A stretch of 64,000 nucleotides of DNA from Victivallales bacterium (GCA_017535315.1 JAFXUD010000040.1:1-64000), one strand, 5' to 3'; numbered from the stretch's first letter, positions 3,739-26,395 are shown. Notes: generated by a model not told the origin, from the letters alone. Made by a program: numbers and translations.

Positions 3739-4027
3739 AGCGCCGTCGTTGTCACACCATTTCTGCCTCATTGCAATACCACTATGGTAGCACTTACAGG
3801 CTACAGCATCAACTTTTATATACAACTTTCTTCAAGAGCCTATAAAAAAGTAAGGTGATTTTTTGAATATCAAAAAGCCGACTTGACAAGCTCCCCAAAA
3901 CAGGCTACATTTGCCTCCAACCCTAAGGACGGGGCCCCGATTTTTCCCACCAAGGAGCTGTTTTTTCTGTCCTCTGCTCTTGCCTCTCTCCTTAAGGTGG
4001 TTCCATCATCAACCAAAGGATACGTGA

Positions 4028-4909
4028 ATGAAGAACATTGTATGTGGCATTCTTATGACTTCTCTTTTGATTACGAGCTTGGGATTGAATGCGGAGGAAC
4101 CCGCCAAGAAGCCATACACCCACCCTGTCAAGTGCGTTTCACATCAGGGCGAGAGCTTTTATGCGCCGAACCACTCGCATGCCGCATACGTGTTGGCTAT
4201 GCAACGCAAGGCGGAGATTATGAAGCTGGACGTCCATTTCACGAAGGACGGGATTCCCGTGCTGAACCACGACCCAACGCTGACGCACCATTATGGATGG
4301 GATGTGGCCATCCGAGACAAAACGCTTCAAGAGATTAAAGAGCAGGCTCTTGCAAAGCCCAAAAAAGGCATTAAAGGCGAGAAGATGCAGACACTGGCGG
4401 AGGGACTGGCCGTGACAAAGGAGTGCCCCGAGTTCTGGATTGACACCAAGACCTTCCCTAAAAACACCCATGAGAGGATTCTAGCGGAGTTCGACCGACT
4501 TGGTATCGTTCACGACCGCATCATGTTTGCGACGGGCAACGAGCGTTCCCTGACATATGCGAAAGAGCACTTCCCCGAGATTCGTCGCGTGAGGCATATC
4601 TATCCCCAGTTCCTCCCGAAGGAGGGTGTACAGGAGCATCTGCTGAAGCTCAAGGAGGAGCTGGACCTCTTTGGAATGAACCTGCCCGCCAAAGGCTTCG
4701 AGCAGGGACTGTTGAACGAGGAGATTCTGCAGAAATTGCGCGCCGCAGGAGTCTGGTGCTCCATCTGGTTCGTGCAGAATGCAGAAGCGGCAAAAACGTA
4801 CAGCGAAATGGGGGCGGATGCATTTGTCACCGACAACATTCTTGAGGTCCGCCCCTTCTGCCGCACGCCTGGCTTCGTCCCCGAAAAAGAGCCTGAACAG
4901 AAACCGTAG
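4028..4909 (+). CDS. Secreted glycerophosphodiester phosphodiesterase-like protein with altered metal site
   Basis: 293 residues with a signal peptide (about 1-21, ending LGLNA). The GDPD motif order is visible: SHQG (38-41) for HRG, PNHS (47-50) for PENT, MKLDV (65-69) for IELDV, FTKDG (71-75) and NHDPTL (80-85). Known enzymes cleave glycerophosphodiesters to glycerol-3-phosphate using a metal held by E-x-D and a further Glu. Here the E of E-x-D is K66, the PENT Glu is N48, and a later expected Glu is Asp in FWIDTKT. Both catalytic histidines (H39 and H81) remain. It may be a divergent enzyme on another phosphodiester or a non-catalytic binder. The ATG at 4028 follows AAGGA. The 3' end of the gene has been tandemly duplicated. 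Confidence 0.8.
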   Translation: MKNIVCGILMTSLLITSLGLNAEEPAKKPYTHPVKCVSHQGESFYAPNHSHAAYVLAMQRKAEIMKLDVHFTKDGIPVLNHDPTLTHHYGWDVAIRDKTLQEIKEQALAKPKKGIKGEKMQTLAEGLAVTKECPEFWIDTKTFPKNTHERILAEFDRLGIVHDRIMFATGNERSLTYAKEHFPEIRRVRHIYPQFLPKEGVQEHLLKLKEELDLFGMNLPAKGFEQGLLNEEILQKLRAAGVWCSIWFVQNAEAAKTYSEMGADAFVTDNILEVRPFCRTPGFVPEKEPEQKP

Positions 4910-4991
4910 TCTTTTCCTAAGTGTACCAAAAACACTTGTGCTGCCATTACACCACTACGAAAAAACAGCCTGAACAGAAACCGTAGTCTTT
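4891..4991 (+). repeat. Direct duplication of the GDPD gene 3' end
   Basis: A 24-bp sequence covering the last codons and stop of the GDPD-like gene (4891-4914) recurs perfectly at 4968-4991, 77 bp downstream. The similarity extends upstream with one indel (CGAAAAA-GAGCC versus CGAAAAAACAGCC). The spacer includes a small hairpin AAGTGT/ACACTT (4919-4937). The second copy is non-coding and precedes the next gene's ribosome site. Confidence 0.9.
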
Positions 4992-5008
4992 CCCCAATTG
5001 GAGCAACT

Positions 5009-7429
5009 ATGAAAAAAGCATTATTGATTGCCTTGTTGTCACCGTTTGTTCTTTTTGCGCAGACGATGACGGAATCCTCCCATCATGTTGAAATCCAGGG
5101 AGGCTGTTTATTGCCAGAGAAGGCCTCCACGCCATTACTGGAGCTGGACTTCGCCAACTCCAACGCGAAATGGGAGCAAACCGACAACTTCGAGCAGAAG
5201 CTCACCTTTGGCTATGGCGAACAACACGGCAAAAAGGGCTTCTACATAGTTGGTCCCGAACTTACGAAGAAAATGTCACGGGACATCGCATGGCAGCTCT
5301 TCTCACCCAGATTTCAGCTCAACGGAGCGCACAGCCTCAAGGGGAACATCCTCCTCTTCACAAACGGTCAAAAAGCCATTGGTCCGTACCTACCATTCCG
5401 TGAAAGATATGTCAATGCCATCTTCTGGTTTGCAGCCGATGGTTCTTCGCTGGGCAAAACCATCTTCCCTGTCAAAATCACCCAAAACGGCTACACCCCC
5501 ATTCTCTTCCAGCTTCCCGTGCCAGAGAAGGCGGTGGAAGCGCAACTCTCCCTGGGGGCGAATACGCCCGACATCGACAACACGGCCCTGGTGCTGATTT
5601 CATACGCATCCGTCCATGGCCTCTCCAAGGACGGCGGCTACTTTACAGATGCGTTTGCCGTCATGCCCCCCGTGCGTGGCGTGGCAGATTGCTCATACGA
5701 AACATACGAGCCAGCTGGCTCCTCCATCGCCATTGAAGTGGCATACGCAAGCGATGACAACGGGGTGCCAAAACAGTTCTCCGCCTTTGCACCATATGGC
5801 GCTGCCGCCCCCAAAGGCACCGCCTGGACCAAATACCGCGTGCTTTTCAAGACAGATGGCAAGGCGTGCCCCATCCTACGCTCCATGAAAGTGGGGAACA
5901 GGCTCTTTTCCAACTGGAACGCGCTCCAATGCACGACACTGCCCAGAGTCCAGCGCATCTCCAAGTCCCCGTCTGCAAATCCTGCACAACCGCTGATATT
6001 CAGCATCTCCAACAGCGTGCCAGTCAATGGTACGACCCTGAAGGTCGTGTTGGATGGCGAGGAGATTACAAAGGATGTCAAACGCAGCAATGATGCGTCA
6101 GACGCTTCAATTGCGACCTTCTCCTATACCCCCAAGGAGCCCTTCGCCATGCGCAAGGTCCACAAGGCGGTCGTAAGCATTGCGGACATCTACGGCAATG
6201 CCACCGAGACACCTCTCTATTTCTTCTTTGACGAGCCCCTTGACAAAGGCGTTTTCTCTCTGCGCAAAGACGGGCAGATGCTGCTGGACGGGCAACCCTT
6301 CTTCCCCATCGCCGCCCCCTATGTCATTCCGCTCCCCATCAATGACCACAACCTGGACAACGCCTTCACCTGGCTCAAAAATGTGGGCTTCAACACCGTT
6401 TACAGCGGACGCAACGCCAAATATGGTGAATATATGGACAAGGTGGCCAAATACGGCATGAAGATGTATGTGATGCCTGGCAACTCCAACGGCGCCAACT
6501 GCAACAACCTAGACGAGATGCTCGAAAACATCGCCCGCGAGTACCGCCACCCCGCCGTGCTGGCATGGTATATCGGCGACGACACCGCCAGCCACAACTC
6601 CCCCGAAGAGATGATGCGCAAAAACGAGGCCATCAAGGCCGTGGATCCCTATCACCTGACCGTCCAGGCGGATGCCATGCACGCTCTCCACCCCTTCGCC
6701 CCCGTTGCGGCGGCAGACGACACCTCGCGCTACCGCCCTGTCGTCAACTTCGCCGACAGCTTCCGTGTCGAGCTCTATCCCGTCCGTGACGATTCCGAGA
6801 AGAACGCGCGGGAGTGCGTCCCAACCGTCATTGATGACATGAAAACCATCCTGCGGGACAACCGCGACTTCGCGACCTCCCCCAAGCACATCTGGGCTGT
6901 GGTGCAGTACTTCGAGGGGTGGACCGACACGAAAGAGAAGGCCGCCTGGAAGCGTTTCCCGACTTGGCAGGAGCTGCGAGCCATGACCTGGGGCTCCATC
7001 ATCCATGGTGCGCGAGGGATGCAATGGTACTCCTATCGCTATGAGACAAAGCGCTTTGTGCATGGCTTCATGTACAAGGAGGAGACACGCGAGAACATCA
7101 AACGGCTGGTGGCAGAACTCACTTCGCTTGTCGATGTCATCAACCTGCCTGACAACCTGCCAGCACCGCCTGTCGCCATTCTCTCTGGCCCCGCAAAGGA
7201 TGCCTTCCAGAACGACGCCATCAGCATCATGGCACGCAAACACGGCGACACCACATACGTTTTTGCCCTCAACTCCGCCTACGCCCCCGTCAAAGCCCGC
7301 ATCGCGCTTCCTGGCTTTGCCAAAGCCTCCCTCCTTTTCGAGGGTGACCGCACGTTGAAGATGGAAAACGGCGCCATGGTCGATGAGTTCCAGCCTTACG
7401 ATATTCATATCTACAGGCTGGAACCTTGA
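5009..7429 (+). CDS. Secreted glycosidase-like protein with GH2-type TIM barrel
   Basis: 806 residues with a signal peptide (MKKALLIALLSPFVLFAQT). The first 400 residues are beta-rich. From about 410 the chain follows the GH2/GH5-like pattern: LLDGQPFFPIAAPY, GFNTVYSG, an EYRHPAVLAWYIGDD segment (about 511-525) where clan-A enzymes carry W.(G/x)NE, and a late GARGMQWYSYR. The usual NE acid/base pair is replaced by DD, so the catalytic residues are not certain and I do not assign a substrate. The ATG at 5009 follows GGAG. It lies downstream of the GDPD-like gene in the same orientation, and the two may be co-transcribed. Confidence 0.7.
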   Translation: MKKALLIALLSPFVLFAQTMTESSHHVEIQGGCLLPEKASTPLLELDFANSNAKWEQTDNFEQKLTFGYGEQHGKKGFYIVGPELTKKMSRDIAWQLFSPRFQLNGAHSLKGNILLFTNGQKAIGPYLPFRERYVNAIFWFAADGSSLGKTIFPVKITQNGYTPILFQLPVPEKAVEAQLSLGANTPDIDNTALVLISYASVHGLSKDGGYFTDAFAVMPPVRGVADCSYETYEPAGSSIAIEVAYASDDNGVPKQFSAFAPYGAAAPKGTAWTKYRVLFKTDGKACPILRSMKVGNRLFSNWNALQCTTLPRVQRISKSPSANPAQPLIFSISNSVPVNGTTLKVVLDGEEITKDVKRSNDASDASIATFSYTPKEPFAMRKVHKAVVSIADIYGNATETPLYFFFDEPLDKGVFSLRKDGQMLLDGQPFFPIAAPYVIPLPINDHNLDNAFTWLKNVGFNTVYSGRNAKYGEYMDKVAKYGMKMYVMPGNSNGANCNNLDEMLENIAREYRHPAVLAWYIGDDTASHNSPEEMMRKNEAIKAVDPYHLTVQADAMHALHPFAPVAAADDTSRYRPVVNFADSFRVELYPVRDDSEKNARECVPTVIDDMKTILRDNRDFATSPKHIWAVVQYFEGWTDTKEKAAWKRFPTWQELRAMTWGSIIHGARGMQWYSYRYETKRFVHGFMYKEETRENIKRLVAELTSLVDVINLPDNLPAPPVAILSGPAKDAFQNDAISIMARKHGDTTYVFALNSAYAPVKARIALPGFAKASLLFEGDRTLKMENGAMVDEFQPYDIHIYRLEP

Positions 7430-19186: not shown

Positions 19187-19840
19187 CTACTTCGTCAGTT
19201 TGAAATCGTAGAAGCGGTTGATGCCCTCGCAACCCGTGATGCCTGCGTAGAAACCACGCTTTAGCTCGGGAAGCATGCAGCCGAACTTGACGCCGTTACA
19301 GGTGACGGTCAGGATAGGGCATTTGCTGGTGAACTGCACTTTCGCCTCCATCGTGTATTTCGTGTTCGCCTCAAAGGGGACATTCACGAAAGCAGCCCTG
19401 CGCCAGAAGGGCTTACCATCTACAATCTGGTGATGCCAGACATTCAACCCATCATTGAAAAGCACGATTTCCCAGTACTCCGCGAACTGCGGATTACCAT
19501 TTTCATTCTTGTCAATCGAGTTGGCCAGCACGATTTCAGGCGCCATCTTGTACTCGAAAAGCATCGTTGCGGAGATGGTCGCGTTCCCAGGCACGGGCTC
19601 CTTATAGACCATGCTGGTGAAGTTGTTTTCCCGCTGAAGCTGTTCGCCAGGCAGGTTTTCGTCTGAGACCTGGTTCTGGATATAGCCGTCCTTCTGCACC
19701 CAGCCGCCGATGTAGTCCCAGCGGGGACTTTTCAACATTATCCAGTCTTCCTTCTTCCATCCGTCCTGCGTAAAAGTGCAGGCAAACTCTTCTGCCATCG
19801 CCATTGCGGCTACAAACAACATAAGTAATGCTCGTTTCAT
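19187..19840 (-). CDS. Secreted beta-jelly-roll (concanavalin/DUF1080-like) protein
   Basis: 217 residues with a signal peptide (about 1-16, ending AMAMA). The body (ATISATMLFEYKMAPEIVLANS, then YWEIVLFNDGLNVWHHQI) has the beta-strand pattern of LamG or DUF1080 (3-keto-glycoside hydrolase-like) jelly rolls. It is short for a catalytic domain and could be a binding module. It is the fourth gene in the minus-strand run (17 bp after the repeat protein). Confidence 0.5.
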   Translation of the reverse strand: MKRALLMLFVAAMAMAEEFACTFTQDGWKKEDWIMLKSPRWDYIGGWVQKDGYIQNQVSDENLPGEQLQRENNFTSMVYKEPVPGNATISATMLFEYKMAPEIVLANSIDKNENGNPQFAEYWEIVLFNDGLNVWHHQIVDGKPFWRRAAFVNVPFEANTKYTMEAKVQFTSKCPILTVTCNGVKFGCMLPELKRGFYAGITGCEGINRFYDFKLTK

Positions 19841-19857
19841 AATTACCTCAAATAACT

Positions 19858-20154
19858 TCAGCCATAGAGTGCGTCCATCTGGTCTTTGCTCAGGCGTTTG
19901 CGGCGCTTCGTCGGTGCGGATTTGCCCATGGAGCCAAGGCCACCCGACATCGCGGGGCCAGAGGGGCCGCCAGACATTGCGGGGCCAGAGGGGCCGCCTG
20001 CCATCGCAGGGCCAGAAGGACCGCCAGCCATCGTGGGGCCAGAGGCTCCACCCGCTGGTGCGTTCACAGGCGCCGCCACACGGCGTCTGCGGGGTTTGTT
20101 TTCGTCAGCCGCGAAAAGGCTGTCCATGAAATCATTGCTTGCGCGTTTAGCCAT
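19858..20154 (-). CDS. Small basic Gly-rich repeat protein with FliM/FliN-like end motifs
   Basis: 98 residues, not recognised. The centre holds four 9-residue repeats of GGPSGPAM(A/S), encoded by a 27-bp DNA repeat. The ends are basic (PRRRR at the N side, KRRKR at the C side). Both termini carry a short motif of similar shape: NDFMDSLFA (about 7-15) and SKDQMDALYG (about 89-98). The latter resembles LSQEEIDALF, the CheY-binding peptide of FliM/FliN. ATG at 20154 follows AGGAGA. It lies 14 bp after the fusion gene and 17 bp before the jelly-roll gene. It may be a flexible linker that presents two short binding motifs, but there is no partner gene for this here. Confidence 0.75.
   Translation of the reverse strand: MAKRASNDFMDSLFAADENKPRRRRVAAPVNAPAGGASGPTMAGGPSGPAMAGGPSGPAMSGGPSGPAMSGGLGSMGKSAPTKRRKRLSKDQMDALYG
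19946..20053. repeat. Four 27-bp coding tandem repeats
   Basis: Four adjacent 27-bp units encode the GGPSGPAM(A/S) repeats of the small protein. The first two units differ at three positions, the others at a few more, so the array is fairly young and may expand or contract without frameshift. Confidence 0.9.
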
Positions 20155-20168
20155 TTTGATTCTCCTTG

Positions 20169-21554
20169 TTAAAAACTGTCCTGTTGTTTTGGCAAAGGAA
20201 ACCCAGGACCAATTGCGTCCATACAATAATATCCACCATTTTTGTGAACATTCCACACGAAAAGGAAATATCTTTCAAAAAAAGGTGCAATTTTTTCCAA
20301 ACTGAAGCGTTCGATGGCGGATTTTCGAATGGAAAGCCTGTCCAAACCATCCACCAGTTCCATCGCCTTCGCGAATTCGGCGGCGGTACGGCAACGGAAT
20401 CCCGTTTTTCCGTTGATGACCGTTTCGGGAAAGGCCCCCCAGTCGGTTGTCAGGACTGGTGTCCCGCACATCTGCGCCTCAATCGCCACATAGCCAAAGG
20501 GTTCTGGGTAGATTGTCGGCATCAGGACCGCCTTTGCGCGGGAAAGCAGCAACGCCTTCTCCCTGCCGAAAACCCCATTATACACCATCTTCAACTCCAA
20601 CCCCGCGTCCTTCGCCACCTGACGCGCCAAATCAATCCCCTTGTCCGAAGCATTCCGTCCCAAATAAAGCAGATAGTTTTCAGGATGCCAGTGGATGAAA
20701 TACTCCTCGGCATGCACAAAATGCGGGATGACAGCGTCAAAATATCGCGTGCTCCAGGTATATTCCGCCTGTGTCGTGTAAATGATGTTCTGCTGCGCAT
20801 ACGAGGGGAAGACGCGATACGGCGCCCAGCAGTGGTCATACCCTACCATCGGCTCCATGACAGGAAGTCCGAAATCCTCAATGCCCGACTGGCTCGCGCC
20901 ATACATGGAGGCTATCAACTGCGGCTTCTCCATCTTCACAATATTTTTCTGAAGCAGCCTGTTCAGCCTTGCGTTGTAGGTTCTATGCCAAGAGCCTCCG
21001 TATATCCAACGCCCCGTCGGCTTGCCTGTGGAAACAAAGCGTCCCCCTTCTGGCACAACGGAGCCAGGCACACCATAATAGATGAACGAAATGCCTAGAT
21101 AGGAGAGCATCTGGCAGAAATTGCGGCAATTGAAAAGCTGCGCGTCGGCGGGGGCGCTGGCAATATCCAACGGAAGGGCTGGATGCCCCAGCACATGCAC
21201 CAGGCCGACCTCCGACTTGCGTTCATTCTCCACCTCCACCCAGTGCCCATGACAAAGCCCCTTGTGTTCCTCGGGTATCTCCCAGTCATACGGGAAGGTC
21301 GCGCACTGGAGCGGCTTCACGGGGTTGATGGTGCAAAGGTTGTTCTCGTCCTGAAAAACGCAGGAACCGTCAGGCTTGTCCGCATAGACAAGCCCCTTGC
21401 GGTCGACAGAAAGGCACGTGTATTTATCGATGAGTTCCTCGACGCTGATGCCAAGGAACTGCGCGATTGGTTTCAGTTCGTTCTCCCGTACATGGACGAC
21501 GCCCTCCCAGCGGCAGCAATTGCCGCAACAGGCGCATTTGAATATCTTTTTCAT
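20169..21554 (-). CDS. YkgJ-type cysteine-cluster domain fused to a GT4 glycosyltransferase
   Basis: 461 residues in one frame. The N-terminal 100 residues are a YkgJ/CxxCxxCC domain: C7, C9, C10, C13, C14, then C65, C74 and C84 in the DGSC-x8-C-x9-C-x-FP order typical of this metal-binding family. From about 117 (VHVLGHPALPLDIASAPAD) the sequence is a GT4-type transferase with GRNASDKG, and EPFGYVAIEAQMCGTPVLTT as the donor-binding E-x7-E region. GT4 enzymes move sugars from nucleotide donors. I know of no standard function for this fusion. The gene is 15 bp after SNF2 and 14 bp before the small repeat protein. Confidence 0.85.
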   Translation of the reverse strand: MKKIFKCACCGNCCRWEGVVHVRENELKPIAQFLGISVEELIDKYTCLSVDRKGLVYADKPDGSCVFQDENNLCTINPVKPLQCATFPYDWEIPEEHKGLCHGHWVEVENERKSEVGLVHVLGHPALPLDIASAPADAQLFNCRNFCQMLSYLGISFIYYGVPGSVVPEGGRFVSTGKPTGRWIYGGSWHRTYNARLNRLLQKNIVKMEKPQLIASMYGASQSGIEDFGLPVMEPMVGYDHCWAPYRVFPSYAQQNIIYTTQAEYTWSTRYFDAVIPHFVHAEEYFIHWHPENYLLYLGRNASDKGIDLARQVAKDAGLELKMVYNGVFGREKALLLSRAKAVLMPTIYPEPFGYVAIEAQMCGTPVLTTDWGAFPETVINGKTGFRCRTAAEFAKAMELVDGLDRLSIRKSAIERFSLEKIAPFFERYFLFVWNVHKNGGYYCMDAIGPGFPLPKQQDSF

Positions 21555-21569
21555 TGTCTGTTCCTCGTA

Positions 21570-24500
21570 CTATTTCAGCAGGCCGCGCAATTCATCCAAG
21601 GTAAGCCGTGAATCGTTGCCGCTGGCATCCACACTGTCGATGACCTCTGCAAAGAGCTGCCGTTTGGATTCCACGATCTGGAGCACCTTCTCCTCAATGG
21701 AGTCCTTGACGATGAGGCGATAGGCAAAGACGGGCTTGTCCTGTCCAATGCGATGCGTACGGTCGATGGCCTGGTTCTCCACGGCGGGATTCCACCATGG
21801 GTCAAACAGAAACACATAGTCCGCCTTCGTCAAGGTCAGTCCCGTACCCGCTGCCTTCAGGCTCAACAGGAAGACAGAGGGGCTCTCATCCTGCTCAAAC
21901 TCCTGAACGATACGCGCCCGCTTCTCGACCGCAACCTCTCCCGTGATCATACGGTAGTTCATCTGTGCCTTCACCAGTTCCGCCTCAATCAGTTTCAGCA
22001 TACTTGTGAATTGGCTGAACACCAGCACGGAATGTCCGCTTTCCAGCAGTTCGGTCAGGCGTTCCATCAGCATCAGCAGCTTCGGAGAGGCAAACTTCTC
22101 TTGAAGTCCCTCCAGCAGTTCAGGGGCACAGCAGAACATGCGAAGCCGCGTGATGGCGGCAAGGATATTCACTGCGCTGAAGCTGTCGGCACTAAGCCGC
22201 GCCTTCACCAGTTCCTTGTTGTAGTCCTTCCGCATTTCAGGTGGCATTTCGACCGCCTGCAATTCCTCTGTTTTCGGCGGAAGCTCTGGCGCAACCATCT
22301 CCTTGGTGCGGCGAATCATCAGCATGTTCAGACGGTGTGCGACAAGCACCCTGCCGCTGGCACTTCCATACTGCGCCAGGAAATCCTCCCGCTTGCCCAG
22401 CAGACCTGGGTTGATGAAGTCCATGATGGACCACAAATCACTCAGGCTGTTTTCAAGGGGAGTGCCCGTCAGGGCCATTCGGCATCCAGCCTCCAGTGTC
22501 CGCACGGCACTGCTGATCTGTGCGTCAGGGTTCTTGATGGCCTGCGCTTCATCCAGCACCACGAAGTCAAAATCGAGTTGAGAGAGCTGGGCGATTTCAC
22601 TACGTACGAGACCATAGTGGGTAACCAGCAGATCGTAGCCATCCTTTTCCAATACCTTCTGGCGGGCATGCCTGTCCCCCACCATAGCCGTGGTTTTCAA
22701 GTCACGGCAAAAGGTTGCACTTTGCTGAACCCACACAGGCACGACAGATGCAGGAGCCACCACCAATGCACGAAAACGCTTGCCTGTTGCAGTCCGCCGC
22801 CAAGCATCCAGCATGGCCAGTACCTCCAAGGTTTTGCCAAGCCCCATGTCGTCCGCCAGAATCGCTCCCACGCCAAAACGGCTTCGCTCAAGCAGAAACT
22901 GCGTTCCAATTCGCTGGTAGGGACGCAGAATAGCAAGGAGGGAGCTATCTATCGGCGGCAGTTCAGGTACTGTGGTTTTGGCTAGCCGTTGGGCAAAGCT
23001 GACAGAGCGGTCTTCCAGTTGAAGCACGCCTAACTCCTCTAGGTGCTTCATGGCATCTGCAGCCTTGTCAGGGAGCATCAATAGCTGGCCTTCATCGACT
23101 CCACTTTCCGATAACGCTTTAAGCGCCTCCCGAAGAGAGTCAGGATCAATGTCAAACCACTGCCCTGCACTGTTTCGAACGAGGGTATTGTTCTGCATGG
23201 CGGCATGCTGAAGTTCCCTCAAAGGAAGAAACGCTTTTCCACAACGGCATGAGGCGCTGAGTTCCACTAGATTCCCTCTGGCATGAAGGGAAAGCTCCAC
23301 CATTGTCTTGTGAGAAGTGCCGTCCAGCAGTCCCTTTGTGTTGTCATCGCAGCGTTTATTCACCTCCTGCGGAAGTTCGTTCCAGAACTGGCGAATCTTG
23401 AAGGCGTTTTCAATGGTCCCCTTGCAAAAATACTCGTCATTGTAGAAGCTACCGTCTGCATCGTCCATCAACTTTCGTATCCTGTTTTCCAAAGCTGGCA
23501 TAGAATCGGTCTTGCTGAAAAAAAGGACAAAACTCCCGTTGCGATAATCCAGACGTCGCCTCATGCCATCCTTTCCAATGTGCCAATTCTGATGTTCAGA
23601 CTGTAGCATCAGGTAGAAATTATAGCCGTCAAAACGTACTGAAATACGAAGGGGAGCCTCTTTTTCCTCGACAACTTGCAGGCACGAAGAAGGCTGCAAG
23701 ATTTCCAGCTGGCCTTCCAGCATCTCAGGCAAACGACGGCAAAGATCACCACGTGAAATATCCGCAGATGCCTGCCCGAAATGACTATTCAGTGCGTCAA
23801 AGGAAATCGGGGAATTGAAGCTGGAAAGTCGGTTCCGCACAATGCATCCCGTCGGGTCTTCTGCAATTAGCTTTTGCAAATCCTTGAAGTGATACTCGCG
23901 GCCATTCTCCATAACCAACAGCAGTGCCACGCGAACAAAGGACTTATGGTCAAAAAGCCGCACCACCAGCTCCTTGGGCTTTCCAATGTCCACCGCATCA
24001 ATGGCCTTCTGCGAAGTGGCCTCGACAATGCGTCCTGGCTCCTGTTTCCACCGCTCCATCCAGCGCCAGAAGTCAGTGGTATTCAGGCAGAGTTCACGCT
24101 TTCCAAGTTGCTGCATCGGCAGTTCACGCAGTTTCAGATGCAGCCAGCGGATAAACTCCTTGTCCTTTTCCGACCAAAGCCAATTCGGCGAAGCCCCTTG
24201 CATCTCGACTTTTTCCAGCTCAAGGCCAAACAAACGGACAGCTGACAGAAGCATCTGGGTACGCTCGCCTTTTTCCACCCTGTAGAACCGCAAAACCGTC
24301 CCATAGCGATTCGAGTTGAAATCCGCTTCACAGACGAGAGAGCATTGCCTTGGAGAAGGTGGCTGCGGACGTTGCCTGGGAGAATCAAACGATGCGTCAT
24401 CGGCAAAAAAAGTCAACTGCTTCAGCGGTGAAGACAGCTGATGTCTTGGCTGTACTGATGATGCAGTCAGGTTTTTCGCTTTTGTTGCCTGTCCCTCTTT

Positions 24501-24854
24501 TTGGGGCTGCGCCCGGGGAGTTTTTCTGCCCACGGGCATTGCCCATTTTTCCTTTTGACAGACCAGCTTGAAAAGAAACGTCGCCAAATAGGTGTGGATG
24601 CATTCAGGCTTGGGATAGCCACAGTCACAGCGGCAACTCCATACCCCATTTTCAAGATGCCAAACAGGATGAAACGCATCCATCGTGGCGCGAAGCGAAA
24701 ACGGCGTGAACTTCAACACCATCCGTTGAATACGCATGGAAAACGCCTTGGCGTTCGCTATTAGAACAGGAGAATAACGTGCGTTTATCTCCTCTTCCGT
24801 CAGCCACTGCCCCAACCAAGCAGGTGCTTCTTTGTCATGTTCTATTTCTATCAT
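21570..24854 (-). CDS. SNF2-family helicase with N-terminal SWIM zinc finger
   Basis: 1094 residues. The SWIM motif is near the start (C74, C76, C78, then C85-x-H87). The SNF2 ATPase core follows in the last half: GAILADDMGLGKT (Walker A), VLDEAQAIKN (DEAH-type), ALTGTPLENS, SVLVFSQFTSML and HRIGQDKPVFAYRL (motif VI). Such proteins translocate on DNA, remodel protein-DNA complexes, or act in repair or defence. No methylase or nuclease is adjacent. The predicted ATG at 24854 has no ribosome site; a palindromic element begins 12 bp upstream and may have replaced the native leader. It is the first gene of the five-gene minus run. Confidence 0.93.
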   Translation of the reverse strand: MIEIEHDKEAPAWLGQWLTEEEINARYSPVLIANAKAFSMRIQRMVLKFTPFSLRATMDAFHPVWHLENGVWSCRCDCGYPKPECIHTYLATFLFKLVCQKEKWAMPVGRKTPRAQPQKEGQATKAKNLTASSVQPRHQLSSPLKQLTFFADDASFDSPRQRPQPPSPRQCSLVCEADFNSNRYGTVLRFYRVEKGERTQMLLSAVRLFGLELEKVEMQGASPNWLWSEKDKEFIRWLHLKLRELPMQQLGKRELCLNTTDFWRWMERWKQEPGRIVEATSQKAIDAVDIGKPKELVVRLFDHKSFVRVALLLVMENGREYHFKDLQKLIAEDPTGCIVRNRLSSFNSPISFDALNSHFGQASADISRGDLCRRLPEMLEGQLEILQPSSCLQVVEEKEAPLRISVRFDGYNFYLMLQSEHQNWHIGKDGMRRRLDYRNGSFVLFFSKTDSMPALENRIRKLMDDADGSFYNDEYFCKGTIENAFKIRQFWNELPQEVNKRCDDNTKGLLDGTSHKTMVELSLHARGNLVELSASCRCGKAFLPLRELQHAAMQNNTLVRNSAGQWFDIDPDSLREALKALSESGVDEGQLLMLPDKAADAMKHLEELGVLQLEDRSVSFAQRLAKTTVPELPPIDSSLLAILRPYQRIGTQFLLERSRFGVGAILADDMGLGKTLEVLAMLDAWRRTATGKRFRALVVAPASVVPVWVQQSATFCRDLKTTAMVGDRHARQKVLEKDGYDLLVTHYGLVRSEIAQLSQLDFDFVVLDEAQAIKNPDAQISSAVRTLEAGCRMALTGTPLENSLSDLWSIMDFINPGLLGKREDFLAQYGSASGRVLVAHRLNMLMIRRTKEMVAPELPPKTEELQAVEMPPEMRKDYNKELVKARLSADSFSAVNILAAITRLRMFCCAPELLEGLQEKFASPKLLMLMERLTELLESGHSVLVFSQFTSMLKLIEAELVKAQMNYRMITGEVAVEKRARIVQEFEQDESPSVFLLSLKAAGTGLTLTKADYVFLFDPWWNPAVENQAIDRTHRIGQDKPVFAYRLIVKDSIEEKVLQIVESKRQLFAEVIDSVDASGNDSRLTLDELRGLLK

Positions 24855-24866
24855 TATATCATTGTC

Positions 24867-25065
24867 GTTACTATTCAGAAGAGAAGCATATTTGCACGAA
24901 CCGCCAGACTTTCTGCGCCTTGCCGCTCCGCTTCGCTACGCGGCAAGGCGCAAAGGGACTCGGTGAACTGCTTATCCCGTGGTTTTCGCTCGCGCCAAAG
25001 GCGTTCGCTTCACCCACGGCTATGTTCTTGCCGCCGCTACGCGGCTTACCCTTCTGAATAGTTAC
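24867..25065. repeat. Palindromic repeat family A, copy 1 (about 200 bp)
   Basis: The ends are inverted repeats (GTTACTATTCAGAAG and CTTCTGAATAGTTAC). Inside are strong stems: TGCGCCTTGCCGC/GCGGCAAGGCGCA, a CCGTGG/CCACGG stem with the inner hairpin CGCCAAAGGCG, and GCCGCTACGCGGC. The inverse copy is at 54347-54546. It lies immediately upstream of the SNF2 start. No ORF is present; the fold suggests a structured MITE or REP-type element. The remaining sequence up to 25169 shows nothing else. Confidence 0.9.
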
Positions 25066-25168
25066 CATTGGTCTTTATTTATGATACACTACACCTTGCA
25101 AGGCCGCGATGGCAACCTGTCCTGTGCTTTGCGCTAAAGTGCAGGGATAAGCAAAGCCGAGACGGCCT

Positions 25169-26395
25169 TTACTTCCTGAAGACAGCGGCGATGGAGCCAA
25201 CCATGCGTGAGCCTGCACGGGAAAGGGCATCGAAGTTGATACAACGCGCCAGAAGGCTTTTTTTCAGGTCTATCGCCTTGACGGGACAGAACTCATGGCA
25301 GCAATAGCATCGGATGCAGGTGCCGTCATTGACCTTCGGGCCACCTTCCGCCAGCGGCGTAATTGCAGGCGGAGAAACGGGGCAGCCCCGTTCGCATCGG
25401 CGGCATTTGATGCAGATTTTCGGATTGATGCGCGGCGCTGGCGCAACCTGACGCCGAATCCAGCGGAGGACAAACCTCGGCAGTGGCAGAATCCGCATGA
25501 TGTTCAGAGGGGCACGCACCAGGTCGAAGTCCCTGATTCGAAGCTCATCCAGCGGAGGCCCTGCCAGTTCAATCCTCTCCAGTTCCACCGTCCCATAGCC
25601 GCCGCGCTGTGCGGCTAATGAAACAGGAACCTGCGGAAGCGTCAATCCAATGATGGTAAAGGCAATCGTATCCAGCGCGCTCAGGTCGGAACTCGCCATA
25701 AGGAGGCCTATCTTGCGTGGAGTTCCGCCGCTGGGGCCTGGCCCCTCCATCCCAACGACTGCATCCATTATGGCCAGAGTTGGAGCTGCGGTGCGGTTGA
25801 TGTCAATCATAAAATCGGCAAGACGGTCACGGTTCTGGAAGCGGAAATGGAATTTCCCCTTCGCAGCACCAGGAATCAGGCCGTATTGGTTTTTCAGCGC
25901 ACCCGTGTAGGCCATCTGGCAATGGGTCTTCAACTTCGGCAGCGTGATAAGGAGATCCATCTCCTTCAGATGTTTCGTCAGTTCAATACGCTTCAGGATG
26001 CGGTTCTCAGGGTTTTCAAACACCGCTGTCTCCTCAAACACGACGAACTGCGCACCCTCCTCCTGCGCCACATCCAGCAAACCAGAGGCCTTTGCCGCCG
26101 TGAGCGTTCCCCCCACGCCAGGGCCGTCGCCCAAAAAACAGATACCCCCAGCCACCTTCACCTGACGAATGACCGCCCTAACCAGCGCAGGATGCGTGGT
26201 GACCGCCATTTCAGGCGCGGACGGCGCCACCAAATTCGGCTTCAAAAGTACCTTCTGCCCTGGTTTGACAAACGCCCCCATGCCGCCCAGTGGAGCCAAA
26301 ACCAGCTCCAAAGCCCTGTCAACCTCCTCCTGCGGAGTGTAGTCTGGCAACCGCACTGCGGAAACCAATGCCTTTTTTTCCTCGTCTTTCATCAC
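25169..26395 (-). CDS. DUF362 protein with two 4Fe-4S ferredoxin motifs
   Basis: 408 residues. The N-terminal part is DUF362 (KVLLKPNLV, LPKLKTHCQM, NQYGLIPG). The C-terminus has two ferredoxin motifs: CIKCRRCERGCP and CIRCYCCHEFCP. Family members are redox proteins of unknown role, some of them linked to metabolism of reduced compounds. It starts 5 bp after a membrane protein gene, so the two likely form one transcript. The nearby cysteine desulfurase homologue could supply sulfur for its clusters, though this link is only suggested by position. Confidence 0.9.
   Translation of the reverse strand: MMKDEEKKALVSAVRLPDYTPQEEVDRALELVLAPLGGMGAFVKPGQKVLLKPNLVAPSAPEMAVTTHPALVRAVIRQVKVAGGICFLGDGPGVGGTLTAAKASGLLDVAQEEGAQFVVFEETAVFENPENRILKRIELTKHLKEMDLLITLPKLKTHCQMAYTGALKNQYGLIPGAAKGKFHFRFQNRDRLADFMIDINRTAAPTLAIMDAVVGMEGPGPSGGTPRKIGLLMASSDLSALDTIAFTIIGLTLPQVPVSLAAQRGGYGTVELERIELAGPPLDELRIRDFDLVRAPLNIMRILPLPRFVLRWIRRQVAPAPRINPKICIKCRRCERGCPVSPPAITPLAEGGPKVNDGTCIRCYCCHEFCPVKAIDLKKSLLARCINFDALSRAGSRMVGSIAAVFRK

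Follow-up and report, generated by a model that had tools for sequence, protein, structure and literature searches.

A conserved gene pair of Victivallales, a GT4 glycosyltransferase and a GPSGP-repeat protein, proposed as a protein O-glycosylation module with relatives in phages

A GT4 glycosyltransferase gene and the gene of a 98-residue GPSGP-repeat protein form a conserved unit in Victivallales, smaller than the operon proposed in a preliminary description of the locus. As judged by sequence comparison, the GT4 enzyme is probably a UDP-sugar-dependent O-glycosyltransferase for the Ser/Thr residues of G-X-S/T-G motifs, with the disordered small protein as its dedicated acceptor. The core would be a two-gene protein-glycosylation module, in which the enzyme, of GT-B fold, would transfer a UDP-derived sugar to the serine hydroxyl in the GPSGP motifs of the adjoining protein: the expected product is a peptide glycosylated at several sites, which has two Arg-rich blocks and, at either terminus, a short helix putatively for binding.

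The locus lies in a stretch of 64,000 nucleotides from a Victivallales bacterium (GCA_017535315.1, JAFXUD010000040.1:1-64000), referred to here as the window, and comprises the following features:

25169..26395, minus strand: DUF362/ferredoxin protein, upstream neighbour of the SNF2 gene in the same subset of genomes as the latter
21570..24854, minus strand: SNF2 helicase with a SWIM-like CxC...CxH motif, 1094 aa, a syntenic neighbour in the fusion-bearing subset, outside the core pair
20169..21554, minus strand: YkgJ-GT4 fusion, 461 aa, single frame
21210..21554, minus strand: YkgJ / CxxCxxCC domain of the fusion, in frame, with eight cysteines that all 13 fusions share
20169..21209, minus strand: GT4 glycosyltransferase part of the fusion, GR-x4-K and E-x7-E conserved
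19858..20154, minus strand: 98-aa GPSGP-repeat protein, the proposed acceptor
19929..20051 (approximate limits), minus strand: repeat region, GGASGPTM and three GGPSGPAM, the Ser of SGP being the proposed O-glycosylation sites
19187..19840, minus strand: secreted protein, on the downstream side of the small protein at a distance of 17 bp, and kept there in the same genus only

The three minus-strand reading frames, their domains and their narrow gaps (15 bp between SNF2 and YkgJ-GT4, 14 bp between YkgJ-GT4 and the small protein) are as the preliminary description had them, and an AAGGAG sequence stands immediately 5' of the small-protein ATG. The Pfam domains SNF2 (E 9e-52), Helicase_C (1e-22), Glycos_transf_1 (7e-16) and CxxCxxCC (4e-7) were all recovered above their cut-offs. 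The helicase carries the SNF2 domain itself, and scores 359.5 bits against the SNF2 pilus-regulating helicase model NF053675, below the curated cut-off of 1100; the SWIM finger ascribed to it was recognized by eye (CRCDCGYPKPECIH), with no Pfam match at E<=1. A search of Rfam with positions 17-27 kb of the window gave no match.

The small protein has been found in 25 of 60 genomes (its own included), within the family as well as in other families of the order, and its occurrence is therefore beyond chance. When the same 60 genomes were searched with a GT4 domain profile built from alignment A1, the enzyme was detected in 33 (own included). The small protein is present in 31 of these 33 genomes, a count that includes divergent small proteins read downstream of GT4 and, in G007, a fragment at the edge of a contig (MAKSSGDFDLFGGGEAKPTRRRRTSAPAAPG), and in 1 of the 27 GT4-free ones (Fisher p 1.4e-13, for genomes that are related to each other). 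Two GT4 genomes have no detected small protein, namely G041 and, with a cut contig, G016; in G023, the only GT4-free genome with the small protein, its gene lies at a contig edge. Most of the pairs are adjacent, with overlapping ORFs in L039, L041 and L044, and in G003, G007 and G035 both genes are retained on different contigs. Thus, the proposal that the small protein and GT4 belong together is supported both by their adjacency and by their co-occurrence, also in genomes where they are unlinked. According to the preliminary description, the idea of a system would fail if the fusion never had a homologue of the small protein as a neighbour: the outcome was the opposite, as homologues do adjoin it. 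In a 289-genome sample of the whole phylum, GT4 and the small protein are essentially restricted to this order, a hit in G194 (E 4e-4, with internal stops) having been set aside as probably due to chance. The bacteria carrying the pair come from gut and wetland, and the named relatives include many Victivallales/Lentisphaeria MAGs and Oligosphaera ethanolica DSM 24202, a cultured host of the pair. In genus g19 (L112, L114), an AAA-ATPase-like ORF follows GT4 instead of the repeat protein, which in G035 is on another contig.

The small protein (MAKRASNDFMDSLFAADENKPRRRRV... GGASGPTM AGGPSGPAM AGGPSGPAM SGGPSGPAM S... TKRRKRLSKDQMDALYG) is made up of an N-terminal helix motif, an Arg block, four 8-residue repeats, an Arg/Lys block and a C-terminal helix motif ending in LYG, and has no match in Pfam, NCBIfam or PHROG. 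Three of the four repeats previously read as GGPSGPAM are exact and the fourth is the degenerate GGASGPTM. In the AlphaFold model (mean pLDDT 63) only residues 9-15 and 90-97 form helices, the rest being poorly ordered, and the resemblance of the two ends noted at the outset is real. Both terminal motifs recur in most lineages of the alignment, and most of the 21 small proteins have Arg/Lys-rich blocks on both sides of the repeats. Speculatively, the end helices might bind a partner, the Arg blocks nucleic acid or polyanions, and the glycosylated protein might act as a glycan carrier or primer. A likeness of the end motif to a flagellar-switch/CheY-binding peptide (FliM-like) was dropped, since the aligned ends vary to DDxLKQLYG and DFLFA. 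By eye, a signal peptide is absent, and the protein is probably cytoplasmic. No second copy of it was found in its own genome at E<=10; a DNA pattern for doubled GPSGP misses the window's own gene, so that its negatives are uninformative.

Among the 21 small proteins, SGP occurs in two to six copies per protein, nearly always as GPSGP. The spacers between the cores vary (AM, AL, MF, ML, AI), and there are none in the (GPS)n versions, which are found only beside the GT4s of L111 and L113. Serine occupies 84 of 93 loosely matched motifs and, in the motifs containing SGP, is encoded by 57 TCN and 54 AGY codons, mixed within some genes. The repeat serine is under selection, since a switch between TCN and AGY needs two changes or a non-serine intermediate. 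A collagen identity of the window repeat was rejected on its period: GGPSGPAM, with a period of 8, lacks uninterrupted Gly-X-Y triplets and is therefore unable to form a collagen helix.

The enzyme belongs to the CAZy-type GT4 (GT-B) glycosyltransferases by its Pfam score (Glycos_transf_1, 58.7 bits for a cut-off of 26.4), its donor motifs and its predicted GT-B fold, the best PDB matches to the AlphaFold model of the fusion (pLDDT 82, pTM 0.77) being all GT4-type GT-B enzymes. TeGSS (8x3q, 7fg9) and the UDP-glucose:tetrahydrobiopterin glucosyltransferases (5zes, 9v0w) are the top matches by both fold and profile, with 20-22% identity and TM of about 0.5-0.7. Residues R185, K190, E236 and E244 are invariant in alignment A1 and nearly or fully invariant in A3, and the GR-x4-K and E-x7-E motifs they form align with those of TeGSS and the tetrahydrobiopterin enzymes, which all use UDP-glucose; R179/K184 of TeGSS have the same R-x4-K spacing (PMC9909042). 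Since these donor residues of the nearest enzymes are kept, a UDP-hexose donor is likely, and the donor would be a UDP-sugar, probably UDP-glucose or similar.

The nearest solved relatives share their donor-site residues with the enzyme, but glucosylate small molecules, which speaks against a protein acceptor; identity is only ~20%, and the N-terminal acceptor domain is hardly alignable by sequence. The small-molecule acceptors favour the strongest alternative, by which the small protein would be a scaffold or regulator, binding GT4 via its repeats or end helices, and GT4 would glucosylate a small molecule, as its closest structures do with sucrose and tetrahydrobiopterin; in keeping with it, sugar kinases of the PfkB and ROK types flank the pair in some lineages. 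It is unlikely, since it leaves unexplained both the invariant serine with its two codon families and the association of this enzyme family with neighbouring G-X-T/S collagen proteins in phages. Of the scaffold and substrate roles initially suggested for the repeat protein, it is the substrate role that these phage GT4s support independently.

The GT4 family of the window is common in phages. At least 346 relatives are found in the viral collection, and in 63 of 80 fetched viral loci there are ORFs matching G-P-T/S or long Gly-X-Y patterns, some of the matches being shadow frames. The collagen domain PF01391 is present in 30/30 whole GT4-bearing viral contigs and in 7/30 random viral contigs drawn by an arbitrary 15-base word (p 1.7e-10), the 30 GT4-bearing contigs being related to each other and not 30 independent events. 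Two contigs of the random set have GT4, one with a collagen domain and the other (G378) without. Among the matches listed, GT4 and its nearest collagen domain share a strand in 27 of 28 contigs, and GT4 and collagen are modestly closer within contigs than at random (combined p 7e-5). Moreover, Thr/Ser make up 71% of the collagen Y positions near GT4 versus 37% in GT4-free contigs (five control contigs, relatedness uncorrected).

The phage glycosyltransferases of PHROG 3408 are homologous to GT4 over most of the domain (E 5e-38) and, like GT4 here, accompany G-X-T/S repeat proteins; their partners are tail-associated collagen-like proteins, whereas the partner here is a small, probably cytoplasmic one. 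In isolated cyanophages, a collagen-like tail protein is encoded directly or closely upstream of GT4: in S-CBWM1, a tail fibre with GPTG/GPSG repeats precedes the GT4 gene by ~90 bp, and in ACG-2014f the order is collagen protein, two small ORFs, GT4, 2OG-Fe(II) oxygenase, one small ORF and tail fibre, a layout similar to that of S-CAM7. The oxygenase, named PiuC in some records, was also observed after the cyanophage GT4 in L285 (9058-9651) and L284 (9969-10565), and may act on the same collagen-like protein as a prolyl or lysyl hydroxylase.

The most telling viral locus, L133, has a GT4 which, in a tree with a very distant outgroup and itself on a long branch, nests inside the Lentisphaeria clade, in an unresolved group including L111 and L113, and which lies directly downstream of a tail protein containing an extended (GPS)n stretch; the same enzyme lineage therefore meets GPS repeats in two unrelated proteins. 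By eye, an apparent class I methyltransferase domain precedes GT4 in the same fused protein of this locus (3834-6008), and a second glycosyltransferase-like ORF follows.

The enzyme of the window belongs to a clade which, in phages, accompanies collagen-like Gly-X-Thr/Ser tail proteins. A broader reading, put forward tentatively and with less confidence than the one for the bacterial pair, is that the PHROG 3408 and Lentisphaeria GT4s are together dedicated Ser/Thr O-glycosyltransferases for Gly-X-Ser/Thr-Gly, by which phages may sugar-coat their collagen-like tail proteins, the bacterial GPSGP partner being perhaps a glycan carrier, a primer or a nucleic-acid-bound scaffold.

Phage glycosyltransferases are usually assigned to DNA or LPS modification and, in papers on phages that have both a glycosyltransferase and a collagen-like protein, to modification of DNA, LPS or the cell wall (PMC10202952, PMC7029224), and PHROG 3408 itself is filed under auxiliary/host takeover, without a substrate. 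These assignments favour a second alternative, in which GT4 and the small protein would be tied, the repeat serines being a protein-interaction motif, with DNA, a surface structure or a different protein as the target of the sugar. Such a target is quite improbable, as the assignments to DNA or LPS predict no collagen-like partner and no LPS or restriction genes were found among the recurrent neighbour families of the bacterial pair. If the proposed glycosylation is real, a substrate would be assigned to a large, so far unassigned group of phage glycosyltransferases, at present filed under host takeover or LPS/DNA modification, phage collagen-like tail proteins would be glycosylated, and the bacterial protein would be an unusual small intracellular protein, multiply O-glycosylated by one dedicated enzyme.

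The cytosolic GT4 enzymes GtfA/B of streptococci and SdgA/B of staphylococci O-glycosylate serines of Ser-rich or SD repeats, their substrates being large secreted adhesins. The proposed module resembles them in its cytosolic GT4 and its repeat serines, and differs in its acceptor; GtfA/B (5e9t) appears only far down the fold-match list. In Clostridioides difficile, SgtA adds GlcNAc in vitro to Thr, or to Ser when substituted, in GPT-repeat peptides, and sgtA sits just upstream of bclA3 (PMC7157674). The likeness consists in a glycosyltransferase gene beside that of a G-P-S/T repeat protein. However, SgtA has a GT-A fold and uses UDP-GlcNAc, unlike the GT-B/GT4 enzyme described here, and BclA3 is a large collagen-like protein of the spore surface, whereas the protein here is disordered, of 98 aa, with non-collagen 8-residue repeats. 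The unrelated transferase fold and the far smaller acceptor thus place the pair outside the SgtA/BclA3 system. Among the papers searched, none joins GPSGP with a glycosyltransferase, and the two that contain YkgJ, glycosyltransferase and fusion together deal, by title, with other subjects.

As regards the remaining parts of the locus, the single-frame YkgJ-GT4 fusion is genuine: the same in-frame fusion in 12 relatives, with all eight YkgJ cysteines, rules out an assembly artefact. The 13 fused proteins, which represent part of one family, all keep C7, C10, C13, C14, C65, C74, C84 and C101, and the domain belongs to the YkgJ / CxxCxxCC family by its score above the cut-off and its further conserved cysteines. 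An essential role of the fused architecture is not supported: in many genomes the small protein is paired with a lone GT4, and GT4 is unfused in G006, G010, G011, G019, G020, G027 and the other families. In the window's lineage the fused metal-cluster domain is probably an accessory or redox/metal module, a speculation drawn from analogy. The flagellin lysine methylase FliB binds a [4Fe-4S] cluster through a related cysteine motif (PMC8598068). FliB shares the N-terminal PF03692-type cysteine cluster and modifies a surface protein, but the match is weak (E 6e-4) and limited to the YkgJ domain, and FliB is a methylase that lacks a glycosyltransferase.

About ten genomes of the family have SNF2, DUF362 and a small membrane protein upstream of the fusion; SNF2 is a neighbour in the fusion-bearing subset only, and an operon-wide system including the helicase is not supported. 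That DUF362, SNF2, YkgJ-GT4 and the small protein make up one nucleic-acid system, with the Arg blocks binding DNA or RNA, is very improbable in spite of this kept gene order, as in other families the retained GT4 and small protein have neighbours of another kind, SNF2 and YkgJ being absent, and two genes separate SNF2 from YkgJ-GT4 in L027 and L029. The secreted jelly-roll protein and the permease follow the pair only within the same genus (G001), and do not belong to the core. In another subset, PfkB and ArgJ genes lie upstream and a ROK kinase gene downstream of the pair (names by eye from sequence). This arrangement, between ArgJ/PfkB-like and ROK-kinase-like genes, occurs in about eight genomes (L031 4527-9130, L044 7419-12446).

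Finally, an element of ~200 bp with terminal inverted repeats (ACTATTCAGAAG) was observed between DUF362 and SNF2 in the window (24868-25066). It has a strong hairpin potential (DNA fold z -4.2) and is MITE-like, with 52 matches in its own genome, mostly near full length and with 82-90% identity.
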